64,000 bases of DNA. It comes from Agrococcus terreus (lineage in GTDB: Bacteria; Actinomycetota; Actinomycetes; Actinomycetales; Microbacteriaceae). The notes beneath the pieces are model-generated. The model was not told the DNA's origin. It saw nothing but the letters and a program-made list of their open reading frames with translations, and did not search any database. Both the position numbers and the translations under genes were made by a program. The stretch spans positions 1,178,001 to 1,242,000 of the forward strand of contig NZ_BMLM01000001.1 in assembly GCF_014645235.1 (NCBI RefSeq), read 5' to 3'. Positions 25,613 through 29,499 of the stretch are shown piece after piece (positions within the stretch are counted from its first letter, which is position 1; each line of letters opens with the position of its first letter).

Positions 25613-27055
25613 ATGCGGTTCATCGGCGACGTGCCCGAGCACGACCTCACCTACTCCGACGTCTTCCTCGTCCCGAGCCGCTCCGGCGTCGGCTCGCGCA
25701 TGGGCGTCGACCTCTCGCCCGACGACGGCACGGGCGCGACGCTCCCGATCGTCGCTGCGAACATGAACTCCGTCACCGGTCCCCGCATGGCGGCGGCGCT
25801 CGCCCGTCGCGGCGCGCTCGCCGTGCTCACGCAGGACCACGCGCTCGACGACACCATCGCCTCCATCGACTGGGTGAAGGCGCAGCCCATCGGGCTCGCC
25901 TCGCCGCACGTCGCCGGCCCCGACGAGACGGTGCAGCTCGTGCTCGAGCGCGTGCCCGCGATCGCCGGCCACGCGGTCGTGGTCGAGGACGCCGACGGCG
26001 GCTTCCTCGGCGCGATCCCCGCCGAGCGCCTCGGCCACGCCCTCGCCGACGCGACGGTCGGCGACCTGCTGCACTCGCGCCTGCCGGAGCTCGCGCCCGC
26101 CGACGCCGTCGACGGCCGCACGATGTTCGCGGCGCTCGAGCGCGAGGGCGTCGAGGTGGCGCCCGTCGTCGAGGGCGGCCGCTGCGTCGGCGTCGCCTCG
26201 CGCCTCGGGGCCCTGCGCGACGACCTCTACCGCCCGGCGCTCGACGGCCAGGGCCGGCTCTCGGTCGCCGTGGCCGTCGGCATCAACGGCGACCCGGGCG
26301 CCAAGGCCGCCGCGCTCGTCGCAGCGGGCGCCGACGTCATCGTCGTCGACACCGCGCACGGCCACCAGGAGGGGATGCTGCGGGCGCTGGAGGCGGTGCG
26401 GTCGCAGGTGGGCGACGCCGTCCCCGTCGCCGCCGGCAACATCGTCTCCTCCGACGGCGCGCGCGACCTCGTCGCCGCAGGCGCCTCGATCCTCAAGGTC
26501 GGCGTCGGCCCGGGCGCCATGTGCACCACCCGCATGATGACCGCCGTCGGTCGGCCGCAGTTCTCGGCCGTCATGGACACCGCGACGACCGCCATCGAGC
26601 TCGGCGCGCGCGTCTGGGCCGACGGCGGCGTGCGCTACCCGCGCGACGTCGCGCTGGCGCTCGCGGCGGGCGCCTCCAGCGTCATGATCGGCTCCTGGTT
26701 CGCGGGCACGATCGAGGCGCCCGGCCGCCTCCAGCGCGATGGCCAGGGGCGGCTCTTCAAGGAGTCGTGGGGCATGGCCTCCACGAAGGCAGTCCTCGGC
26801 CGCAACGCCGGCCTCGACGCCTACGAGCTCGCCCGCAAGACGCTCTTCGCCGAGGGCATCTCGTCGTCGACGATCCTGCTCGACCCGCAGCGGCCGAGCG
26901 TCGAGGACCTCGTCGACATGATCACCTCGGGCGTGCGCTCCTCGTTCACGTACGCGGGCGCCGACAGCGTGCCCGCGTTCCGCGAGCGCGCCCGCGTCGG
27001 CGTGCAGTCGGCGGCCGGCTACGAGGAGGGCAAGGCCCTGCCCGTCTCCTGGTAG
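25613..27055 (+). CDS. guaB1: GuaB1-family IMP dehydrogenase-related protein (probable GMP reductase)
   Basis: 480 residues with the IMPDH/GMPR barrel: TYSDVFLVPSRSGV near the N-terminus, ANMNSVTG, a CBS-type insertion (about 95-210), VDTAHGHQEGML, the catalytic Cys loop GVGPGAMCTTRMM (about 300-308), ADGGVRYPRDVALALAAGAS and GMASTKA. It belongs to the actinobacterial GuaB1 group, whose mycobacterial member has been shown to be a GMP reductase (GMP to IMP) and not an IMP dehydrogenase. So a role in guanine-to-adenine nucleotide interconversion is likely, with CBS domains sensing nucleotides. Followed by 40 nt, then the leader ORF of the CNNM genes. Confidence 0.9.
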   Translation: MRFIGDVPEHDLTYSDVFLVPSRSGVGSRMGVDLSPDDGTGATLPIVAANMNSVTGPRMAAALARRGALAVLTQDHALDDTIASIDWVKAQPIGLASPHVAGPDETVQLVLERVPAIAGHAVVVEDADGGFLGAIPAERLGHALADATVGDLLHSRLPELAPADAVDGRTMFAALEREGVEVAPVVEGGRCVGVASRLGALRDDLYRPALDGQGRLSVAVAVGINGDPGAKAAALVAAGADVIVVDTAHGHQEGMLRALEAVRSQVGDAVPVAAGNIVSSDGARDLVAAGASILKVGVGPGAMCTTRMMTAVGRPQFSAVMDTATTAIELGARVWADGGVRYPRDVALALAAGASSVMIGSWFAGTIEAPGRLQRDGQGRLFKESWGMASTKAVLGRNAGLDAYELARKTLFAEGISSSTILLDPQRPSVEDLVDMITSGVRSSFTYAGADSVPAFRERARVGVQSAAGYEEGKALPVSW

Positions 27056-27083
27056 CGGCGGCCGGCGCGCGGGCGCGCGCGAG

Positions 27084-27089
27084 TAGGAT
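27084..27089 (+). promoter_or_regulatory. Leaderless -10 of leader ORF/CNNM operon
   Basis: TAGGAT, 6 nt before GTG 27096. It places the transcript start at the leader ORF and not at the CNNM gene 47 nt further on. Confidence 0.6.
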
Positions 27090-27095
27090 GACGCC

Positions 27096-27143
27096 GTGCA
27101 CGACGACCCCAGTCATAGTCCCGCGCCGGTCCCCGTCATCTGA
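27096..27143 (+). CDS. Leaderless 15-codon leader peptide, stop-start overlap with CNNM gene
   Basis: GTG at 27096 opens a 15-codon ORF that ends with TGA at 27141-27143; the A of the stop is the A of the CNNM ATG (TGATG). The peptide would be MHDDPSHSPAPVPVI: two Asp followed by Pro, and four Pro in all. No Shine-Dalgarno precedes the CNNM ATG, an in-frame TAG at 27116 blocks any longer CNNM start, and the -10 is positioned for leaderless start at the GTG. So CNNM translation probably depends on ribosomes finishing this leader. Acidic-proline leaders such as enterobacterial MgtL sense Mg2+ by ribosome destabilisation; a like role is an inference. Confidence 0.55.
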   Translation: MHDDPSHSPAPVPVI

Positions 27144-28462
27144 TGGACACGATCCTCATCCTGATCGGCGTCGTCCTGACGATCGGAACCGGCCTCTTCG
27201 TCGCCAGCGAGTTCTCGCTCGTCAACCTCGACCGCTCGGAGCTCGAGGCCCGCCGCGGCCGCGGCGAGCGCCGGCTCGACGGCACCATCAAGGCGCTCAA
27301 GCAGACCTCCACGCACCTCTCGAGCGCGCAGCTGGGCATCACGCTCACGACGCTCCTCACCGGCTACACGATGGAGCCCGCCATCTCGCGGCTGCTCACG
27401 CCCGTGCTCGTCGGCTGGGGCCTCGCAGAGGGCTTCGCAGCCCCGCTCTCGAGCGTCATCGCCATGACGGGCGCGACGATCCTCTCGATGATCGTCGGCG
27501 AGCTCGTGCCCAAGAACCTCGCGCTCGCGAAGCCGCTCGGCACCGCCATCGGCGTCACGCCCTTCCAGCGCCTCTTCACCGCCATCTTCAAGCCCGCGGT
27601 GCTCGGCCTCAACGGCTCGGCCAACGGCATCCTCCGCTCCATGGGCCTCGAGCCCAAGGAGGAGCTCTCGGGCGCCCGCACGGCCGAGGAGCTCTCGACG
27701 CTCGTGCGCCGCAGCGCCACCGAGGGCGCGCTGGACGTCGGCGCCGCGACGCTCCTCGCGCGCACGCTGCGCTTCGCGGAGCTCAGCGCCGGCGACGTCA
27801 TGACGCCGCGCCCGCGCGTGCACGCGATCGACCGCTCCGGCTCGGTCGCCGAGCTCGTGGCGCTCTCGCGCTCGACGGGCCTGTCGCGCTTCCCCGTGAC
27901 CGACGGCGACCTCGACGAGGTGGTCGGCATCGCCCACATCAAGCAGGCCATCGCCGTGCCGCGCGAGCGCCGCGCCGACGTGCCGGTCGCCGCCATCGCC
28001 GAGGAGCCGCACCGCGTGCCCGAGTCGGTGCGGCTCGACGCGCTGCTCTCGGACCTCAAGGAGCGCGGCTACCAGATGGCGCTCGTCGTCGACGAGTACG
28101 GCGGCACCGCCGGCATCGCGACGCTCGAGGACCTCGTCGAGGAGGTCGTGGGCGAGGTCGCCGACGAGCATGACCGGATGCACGTGGAGGTCGTCCGCGG
28201 CCCCGGCTGGGTCACGTTCCCCGGCTCCTTCCGCCCCGACGAGCTGCTCGAGCGGGCCAGGATCGCCGTGCCCGAGGACGGCCCGTACGAGACGATCGGC
28301 GGCTTCATCATGGCCGAGCTGGGCGCCGTGCCCGTCGTCGGCGACACCGTCGCGATCGAGGCCGGCACGCTGCGCGTCGAGCGCGTCGACGGCCGCCGCG
28401 TCGACCGCGTGCGGTTCATCGAGCTCGCGACGGCGACCGAGGACGAGGGGGCGCAGCGATGA
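27143..28462 (+). CDS. CNNM/CorB-type (hemolysin-family) transporter with CBS and CorC_HlyC domains
   Basis: 439 residues. N-terminal DUF21/CNNM membrane domain (about 1-190; ASEFSLVNLDRSELE, AQLGITLTTLLTGYTMEPA, GELVPKNLALA), a CBS pair (about 205-335; DVMTPRPRVHAID, VDEYGGTAGIATLEDLVEEVVGEV) and a C-terminal CorC_HlyC domain (about 350-430). CNNM/CorB proteins move Mg2+ (and possibly Co2+), and several bacterial members export Mg2+. ATG at 27143 has no Shine-Dalgarno and overlaps the leader ORF stop. Its own TGA overlaps the next gene's ATG (ATGA). Confidence 0.88.
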   Translation: MDTILILIGVVLTIGTGLFVASEFSLVNLDRSELEARRGRGERRLDGTIKALKQTSTHLSSAQLGITLTTLLTGYTMEPAISRLLTPVLVGWGLAEGFAAPLSSVIAMTGATILSMIVGELVPKNLALAKPLGTAIGVTPFQRLFTAIFKPAVLGLNGSANGILRSMGLEPKEELSGARTAEELSTLVRRSATEGALDVGAATLLARTLRFAELSAGDVMTPRPRVHAIDRSGSVAELVALSRSTGLSRFPVTDGDLDEVVGIAHIKQAIAVPRERRADVPVAAIAEEPHRVPESVRLDALLSDLKERGYQMALVVDEYGGTAGIATLEDLVEEVVGEVADEHDRMHVEVVRGPGWVTFPGSFRPDELLERARIAVPEDGPYETIGGFIMAELGAVPVVGDTVAIEAGTLRVERVDGRRVDRVRFIELATATEDEGAQR

Positions 28463-29499
28463 ACGACTGGCTGGGCATCATGTGGCTGGTCATCCTGCTG
28501 ATCGCCAACGCCTTCTTCGTCGGCGCCGAGTTCGCCGTCATCTCGGCGCGCCGCTCGCAGATCGAGCCGCTCGCCGACCGCGGCAACCGCGCCGCGAAGC
28601 TCGCGCTCTACGCGATGGAGCACGTCTCGCTCATGCTGGCGATGTGCCAGCTGGGCATCACGATCTGCTCGCTCCTCATCCTCAACGTGTCGGAGCCCGC
28701 GATCCACCACCTGCTCGAGGGCCCGCTCTCGTGGACGGGGCTCAGCGAGGAGGTCGTCTCGGTGACGGCGTTCGTCATCGCGCTGCTGCTCGTCACCTAC
28801 CTGCACGTCGTGCTCGGCGAGATGGTGCCGAAGAACGCGGCGTTCTCGGTGCCCGACCGCGCCGTGCTGCTGCTCGCGCCGCCGCTCGTGCTCATCTCGC
28901 GCGTCTTCCGCCCGATCATCTGGGTGATGAACGCGATCGCGAACGGCATCCTGCGCCTGTTCCGGGTGGATCCGGTGGACGAGGCCGCGAGCGCGTTCAC
29001 GATCGACGAGGTCGAGACGATCGTCGAGACCTCGAAGCGCGAGGGCGTGCTGTTCGACCCGACGGGCGCGATCTCGCGCACGTTCGAGTTCACGGAGCGT
29101 CGCGTCAAGGACGTCGCGCTGCCGCTCGACGAGATCGTGACGCTGCCGCAGGGCGCGACCACCGCCGACGTCGAGGCGGCGGTGCGCGAGCGCGGCTTCT
29201 CGCGCTACGTCATCACCGACGAGGCCGGCGCCCCGACGGGCTACGTGCACGTGAAGGACGTGCTCGGCGCCGAGGACGACGAGGTCGACGAGCCCGTGCC
29301 GGGCAAGCGCATCCGGCAGCTCGCCTCGATCTACCAGGACGCCGAGGTCGAGGACGCGCTCGCGCTCATGCGCTCCACGGGGGCGCACGTGGCACGATCG
29401 TTCGACGAGCAGGGCGAGACGACCGGCCTGCTCTTCCTCGAGGACATCATCGAGGAGCTGGTGGGCGAGGTCCGCGACGCCACGAGGAGGCTCTTCTGA
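28459..29499 (+). CDS. CNNM/CorB-type transporter, shorter paralogue
   Basis: 346 residues, homologous to the upstream gene: DUF21 domain (about 1-185; GAEFAVISARRSQIEP, CQLGITICSLLILNVSEPA, GEMVPKNAAFS) and a CBS pair (about 200-340; FLEDIIEELVGEV near the end). It lacks the CorC_HlyC domain, so it ends at the CBS module. Paired long and short CNNM genes are common in Actinobacteria and may form a heterodimer. ATG at 28459 overlaps the previous stop (ATGA). An AGGAGG at 29485-29490 inside its last codons serves the next gene. Confidence 0.88.
   Translation: MNDWLGIMWLVILLIANAFFVGAEFAVISARRSQIEPLADRGNRAAKLALYAMEHVSLMLAMCQLGITICSLLILNVSEPAIHHLLEGPLSWTGLSEEVVSVTAFVIALLLVTYLHVVLGEMVPKNAAFSVPDRAVLLLAPPLVLISRVFRPIIWVMNAIANGILRLFRVDPVDEAASAFTIDEVETIVETSKREGVLFDPTGAISRTFEFTERRVKDVALPLDEIVTLPQGATTADVEAAVRERGFSRYVITDEAGAPTGYVHVKDVLGAEDDEVDEPVPGKRIRQLASIYQDAEVEDALALMRSTGAHVARSFDEQGETTGLLFLEDIIEELVGEVRDATRRLF

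Follow-up and report, generated by a model that had tools for sequence, protein, structure and literature searches.

The 64,000-nucleotide stretch of contig NZ_BMLM01000001.1 analysed here (the window) carries, directly ahead of a CNNM/CorB-type transporter gene, a short upstream open reading frame (uORF) that, judged by its sequence and that of its relatives, is a conserved cis-acting leader peptide. We propose that this leader gates translation of the CNNM gene, ribosomes dropping off at its acidic and proline residues at low Mg2+ and the transporter being made when Mg2+ is ample; we would give this reading a probability of about 0.5. It builds on the leader itself, its conservation, its specificity for CNNM genes, the spacing of its promoter box and the geometry of its coupling to the CNNM gene, all established from the window and related loci.

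The leader ORF occupies 27096..27143 (all window features are on the forward strand) and consists of 15 codons, GTG CAC GAC GAC CCC AGT CAT AGT CCC GCG CCG GTC CCC GTC ATC, followed by TGA (27141-27143); the peptide is MHDDPSHSPAPVPVI, and the ORF is present exactly as an earlier reading of the sequence alone (the original prediction) had described it. A -10-type box, TAGGAT, lies at 27084..27089, 6 nt before the GTG. Within the leader, Asp Asp Pro at codons 3-5 forms the acidic-proline core (27102..27110), Ser-His-Ser-Pro (AGT CAT AGT CCC, with rare codons) a second conserved block (27111..27122), and Pro9, Pro11, and Pro13 a PxPxP run (27120..27134). The junction with the CNNM gene is a TGATG stop-start overlap (27141..27145), the A at 27143 being common to the leader TGA and the CNNM ATG. 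A TAG in the CNNM frame (27116..27118, in-frame at -27) rules out a longer CNNM start, and the CNNM ATG is without a Shine-Dalgarno sequence (-2.4 kcal/mol with the anti-Shine-Dalgarno sequence, vs. -11.7 kcal/mol for the ATG of a second CNNM gene at 28459); the shared A, the excluded longer start, and the missing Shine-Dalgarno had all been read correctly in the original prediction.

For comparison, a uORF was counted when it had at least 8 residues, a promoter box, and an end at the CNNM start, and the chance expectation was taken from 10 shuffles per locus. Such uORFs before CNNM genes exceed chance: they were found in 24/24 genus loci (0.6 expected), in 97/106 other loci of the family (3.0 expected), in 38/62 loci of other families of the order (1.3 expected), and in 25/29 named loci, nearly all from Microbacteriaceae and Micrococcaceae (0.4 expected); among more distant named loci (e.g., Streptomyces, Mycolicibacterium, Nocardia) the count was 1/49, with 0.1 expected. 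A CNNM match was found in 24/24 genus genomes, and the best-matching locus of each was examined. Microbacterium, Compostimonas, Clavibacter, and Leifsonia are among the nearest named relatives, which is why the family is taken to be Microbacteriaceae. Its 106 loci represent 106/146 non-genus genomes with a match; one locus cut by a contig end (L046) was dropped from the set and, when refetched (L319), also carried MDDPPS. The 62 loci of other families come from 59/93 genomes with a match, two of these loci (L180, L183) being unusable since they are cut by contig ends. From the named set, in which starts up to 60 nt upstream of the match were considered, 2/80 loci were dropped for too little upstream sequence, and the distant 49 include one Arthrobacter (L264). 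An acidic residue followed by a proline within two residues occurs among the first 16 amino acids in 94/106 family, 19/24 genus, and 25/29 named loci, and in 0/49 of the distant named loci. The leader/CNNM junction in the 24 genus loci is TGATG in 18 and ATGA in 6, distances being measured from whichever candidate CNNM start lay closest to the end of the leader, with leaders having been chosen for ending near it. A lack of conservation of the short ORF in relatives would have counted against the original prediction; leader, acidic-proline start, and CNNM overlap are instead conserved in relatives, and the short ORF is kept throughout the genus, in most of the family, and in much of the order.

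The leader is largely specific to CNNM genes. The pattern ATGGAYGAYCCNCC gave 89 matches in 100 family genomes, 71 of them before CNNM genes (65 within 350 nt upstream of CNNM by coordinates, 4 by inspection of 20 others, and 2, located at contig ends, judged by their first residues); the 18 matches elsewhere are comparable to the 22 matches of a reversed control pattern. Second CNNM paralogues are marked by it as well. The CorA importer served as a control, and such a uORF was found in 0/29 usable loci (30 loci, L329 dropped for a frame problem). At CorA of the window genome (L311, G000:C1, 995497-996387, reverse strand) an 8-residue candidate, MGDLTRPR, with a TANNNT box lies beside a possible CorA start; at MgtE of the same genome no short uORF candidate was found.

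Among the family leaders, 89/106 start with M[DE][DE]PP, and the remaining 17 uORFs include eight MDD, one MDH, and one MDS starts; the 99 family leaders referred to below are the 89 with the motif plus these ten, seven loci being left out. The family consensus is MDDPPS and most of the genus has M[NHT]DD..SHSPxPEP; set side by side, the versions are MDDPPS and MHDDPSHSPAPVP. The genus alignment covers 17 loci, all with a 15-codon leader; the other seven, six of them divergent and one with 14 codons, were set aside. In this alignment Asp3 (always GAC), His7, Ser8, Pro9, Pro11, and Pro13 are invariant in 17/17, and residue 4 is Asp in 16 and Glu in 1. An H-x-P motif, often H-[R/S/K]-P, is shared by 47/99 family and 24/24 genus leaders (e.g., L073, L079, L105; window 27111-27122), with a rare middle codon (AGA, AGT, or AAA) in 30/47 and 24/24 of these, respectively. 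The window copy is a genus-specific, weaker version of the MDDPP leader and one of its poorer exemplars, because residue 12, Glu or Asp in 13/17 genus loci, is Val here, and residue 10, Glu in 8/17, is Ala; the family consensus is closer than the window copy to the EPDP of MgtL, the leader peptide of enterobacterial mgtA.

In leaderless mRNAs the -10 box lies about 6-7 nt before the start codon. A TANNNT box 5-12 nt upstream of the uORF start is present in 24/24 genus and 98/99 family leaders, vs. 10/1446 control ATG or GTG codons; box and start are 6 nt apart at 15 genus loci and 7 nt at nine, and mostly 9-10 nt apart in the family, which corresponds to a 5' untranslated region of a few bases. 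The leader transcript is therefore probably leaderless or nearly so, and since the box leaves little or no 5' untranslated region, ribosomes should enter at the leader. The leaderless GTG of the original prediction gains from the TAGGAT 6 nt upstream, its leaderlessness being read from this box spacing; no promoter with both boxes came out of a generic sigma-70 scan. Family uORF starts have a median anti-Shine-Dalgarno energy of -2.4 kcal/mol. The CNNM start is without Shine-Dalgarno in 18/18 core genus loci (cut -4.5 kcal/mol), which together with the stop-start overlap suggests that CNNM translation in the genus depends on completing the leader.

The proposed course of events is as follows. 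From the promoter, transcription would begin at the leader start codon or a few bases away from it, and ribosomes would enter via the leader, the translation of which is suggested by its conservation. When Mg2+ is low, the acidic residues and prolines at the leader start would destabilise ribosomes early in elongation; ribosomes surviving this would reach the leader stop and reinitiate at the overlapping CNNM start, and those falling off would leave CNNM untranslated. The CNNM protein would be made at ample and not at scarce Mg2+, which is the right sign for an exporter, and the translating ribosome itself may be the Mg2+ sensor. Of the Mg2+-leader interpretation in the original prediction, the conserved acidic-proline leader with its preference for CNNM genes can be kept as found; drop-off, Mg2+ as the signal, and export stay predictions. 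A wider claim, to which we would give somewhat less than even odds, is that this order of Actinobacteria has an undescribed family of leaderless Mg2+ leaders of its own, with the ribosome as sensor and the overlap as switch, drop-off at Asp-Asp-Pro-Pro silencing the exporter with no riboswitch, hairpin, or Rho involved.

The output gene of the window (27143..28462) encodes a CNNM/CorB-type transporter with CNNM, CBS, and CorC_HlyC domain matches. In sequence, the solved structures nearest to it are 7m1u and 7m1t, entries titled hemolysin with CBS domains, which we take to be archaeal CorB structures. Residues E120, P123, and K124, which belong to the CorB pi-helical turn (functional residues as given in the part of PMC8242095 that was available), are invariant in 12 aligned proteins. 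From its protein family the window CNNM is a putative Mg2+ exporter.

Several points weigh against the proposal. Pairing of Shine-Dalgarno type at or below -4.5 kcal/mol precedes the uORF start in 8/17 genus and 18/89 family loci, which weakens the leaderless reading; for the window GTG the value is -5.9 kcal/mol, the pairing sequence TAGGATGA coming from the TAGGAT box itself, and this box could serve as a weak Shine-Dalgarno if the transcript were longer. A CNNM Shine-Dalgarno lies inside the leader in 72/89 family loci (<= -4.5 kcal/mol), where the coupling is possibly not absolute. Pro-Pro is found in 0/24 genus leaders, and the window departs from the family consensus; in three Leucobacter loci (L247, L249, L252) and in L139 the [DE]PPS core stands at residues 10-13, an arrangement that would suit a polyproline stall as well. 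Only 21/62 loci from other families of the order have a leader with an early acidic residue near a proline. Direction and substrate of transport, taken as they are from the protein family, count on the same side.

In another account the uORF senses nothing and is a constitutive loader of ribosomes, which pass on to CNNM by reinitiating there. This suits the termination-reinitiation geometry of the overlap and the other families, where the uORF is found more often than the early acidic-proline start, and in Actinobacteria a general role in boosting expression has been proposed for reinitiation at leader genes (PMC4833913, partial text). The codons point partly the same way: when codons 2-7 were recoded to CNNM usage, the unpaired fraction of the 5' end fell from 0.55 to 0.507 (natively more open in 59/89 leaders, p 5e-5), so part of the codon preference may serve initiation at the 5' end. 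Such recruitment needs no fixed peptide, yet M[DE][DE]PP is kept in most family loci and largely before CNNM genes, and we regard this account as unlikely, at little better than one chance in five. Somewhat less probable still is a sensor of proline, in which DPP or PxPxP makes ribosomes pause and what is read is the capacity of elongation factor P or the charging or m1G37 state of tRNA-Pro, not Mg2+ acting on the nascent-chain complex. The Pro4 codon is CCT or CCC in 87/89 family leaders; the shifted [DE]PPS core, and the GAC codon in view of the preference of XPP stalling for a G-starting codon in the E site (PMC11611912, partial text), also agree with a proline pause. Against this stand the Pro5 codons (CCT 38, CCG 25, CCC 23, CCA 3 in the 89 leaders), the absence of Pro-Pro from the genus, and a CNNM output that gives no obvious reason for a proline signal. 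The Asp2 codons (GAC 63, GAT 26) are mixed as those of Pro5 are, so that synonymous sites vary, and only this synonymous spread is informative, since the 89 leaders were selected for the motif. Sensing through tRNA-Pro(GGG)/TrmD as the sole cause of the codon choice was rejected, Pro4 being almost always CCY and Pro5 CCG in 25/89. A proline signal is in part compatible with Mg2+, since a dependence of mgtL on proline codons is reported (citations in the partial texts of PMC12421838 and PMC11611912). As a separate observation, the leaders in which [DE]PPS at residues 10-13 takes the place of DDPP at 2-5 may allow polyproline stalling to be told apart from destabilisation at the N-terminus. The codons of the leader are also unusual in their endings: codon 6 is G/C-ending in 8 percent of 99 leaders vs. 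86 percent of the first 50 CNNM codons, Pro4 is CCT in 61/89 family leaders vs. 2 percent of 46 CNNM prolines, and T-ending codons (CCT, TCT) are strongly favoured at codons 4 and 6 in these high-GC genomes, beyond the need of the peptide.

The conserved item could also be RNA, be it a nucleotide motif (e.g., CATAG[TA]CC) or a hairpin in which the CNNM ribosome-binding site is hidden. Asp3, His7, and Ser8 are without any synonymous change in the 17 genus loci, in which 17/24 invariant CNNM codons do change; the peptide alone does not explain this, and the recurring rare middle codons of H-x-P would agree with a nucleotide motif. Hairpins over the Shine-Dalgarno were seen by eye in the far paralogue leaders L025-L030 and may matter there. 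As a switch, the hairpin suggested by eye in several loci was rejected, because the accessibility of the ribosome-binding site equals that of shuffles (0.364 vs. 0.354, p 0.19; 83/89 family loci, six left out by a length filter). Codons 2-7 form on average 1.1 pairs with the ribosome-binding site, the genus alignment gave no covarying structure (covariation term +0.18, both-sided change in 2/18 pairs), and the window fold shows no excess stability (z 0.33), so that an RNA element is very improbable. That the uORF encodes a small protein with a function of its own would account for its conservation, but the 89 family leaders range from 11 to 63 amino acids and are alike only at their beginning, with only short motifs in common beyond it, which argues for a leader; we give this last explanation next to no credence.

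Other mechanisms were tried on the same loci. No relevant Rfam match was found in 26500-28000, and the covariance model of the M-box riboswitch (RF00380) had no match in the region or in the genome. A general +1 frameshift at CCC/CCT into the CNNM frame was rejected, since in 64/89 loci a ribosome in that frame would meet a stop after codon 4 and before the CNNM start, as it would in 47/62 of the loci where the shift would enter the CNNM frame; the window has its TAG at 27116, and at the remaining loci such a shift may still occur. Also discarded was CATAGTCC as a regulon motif: among its five genome copies, the window copy was the only one seen in a leader; another falls within a tRNA-like stretch, and the rest were assessed by eye.

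Around the leader, an IMP dehydrogenase/GMP reductase-type gene (25613..27055, by domain matches) ends 40 nt before the uORF start, and downstream the first CNNM gene overlaps by ATGA with the second (28459..29499), which has CNNM and CBS domain matches and a strong Shine-Dalgarno. Elsewhere in the family, in genome G068 (L321, G068:C1, near 659081-659142), corA ends 45 nt before an MDDPP leader and its CNNM operon, an association of the leader with Mg2+ transport. A more distant CNNM pair of the window genome (L029, G000:C2, about 588667-588838, reverse strand; also L026-L028 and L030) has a different overlapping leader, with MSHRSP followed by a variable number of DSEG[RH]SP-type repeats, a conserved CCCACGAGAGAG upstream, and a C-run and G-run possibly pairing over the CNNM Shine-Dalgarno; it is a second acidic-proline leader on this gene class. 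In one other genus of the order, L188, L197, and L201 have M[TP]SDSP[SG]RREAG leaders before CNNM, alike within the genus and unlike MDDPP.

No published description of such a CNNM/CorB/CorC leader was found among the top matches in the open-licence literature, mostly titles and abstract openings. If the proposal is true, another phylum would have a counterpart of MgtL on the exporter side, a leader on exporter-type genes in Actinobacteria that is entered at its 5' end and acts by simple overlap, with sensor and output in one 60-bp element; this would point to more than one origin of acidic-proline leaders as ribosome-based ion sensors; and it would be seen how a genome without an M-box could control its CNNM genes.

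The known systems are compared here as they are described in partial texts of the papers cited. In these papers, nascent-chain Mg2+ leader peptides are described from enterobacteria, mostly driving importers. MgtL, likewise short, precedes a Mg2+ transport gene and has acidic residues and prolines early in its sequence, and its EPDP causes ribosome drop-off at low Mg2+ (PMC11282234); when translation of MgtL aborts, alternative RNA folds prevent Rho-dependent termination and an importer is turned on, whereas the present leader overlaps its gene, appears leaderless, shows no conserved fold, and on abortion should turn a putative exporter off. The uORF mgtQ before mgtB of Salmonella has 8 residues; two of these, Asp2 and Glu5, make ribosomes unstable and control the translation of the following gene (PMC8092293), but abortion of mgtQ raises an importer by a refolding that opens the ribosome-binding site, and it has a strong Shine-Dalgarno; a hairpin over that site is here not beyond chance. 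The corL uORF of E. coli is translated more as Mg2+ increases, and its translation controls the Mg2+ transporter gene corA (PMC11552253), but it lowers corA through structure and Rho, and corL has few acidic or proline residues. In CorC/YbeX, a destabilising N-terminal sequence is tied to a Mg2+ efflux protein (as stated in PMC12421838), but within the N-terminal region of the protein itself and not in a separate overlapping leader. An actinobacterial uORF linked to Mg2+ is uORF2 with the M-box at pe20 of M. tuberculosis (PMC12810186), a riboswitch-driven system; the genome and region of the window have no M-box match. By its description, YoaL of yoaE/mgpA (E. coli, Salmonella) is alike in that the leader overlaps the upstream part of its CorC-domain gene, which confers protection against excess Mg2+, and such an overlap with the start of a CorC-domain gene is also present in the window; mutation of the YoaL start lowers MgpA translation, and an action at high Mg2+ has been suggested (PMC12421838), but MgpA has a TerC and not a CNNM transmembrane domain and belongs to another phylum. 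Taken together, the analysis suggests that the leader is a variant of the Mg2+-type leader peptides not described before, with a predicted response to Mg2+.
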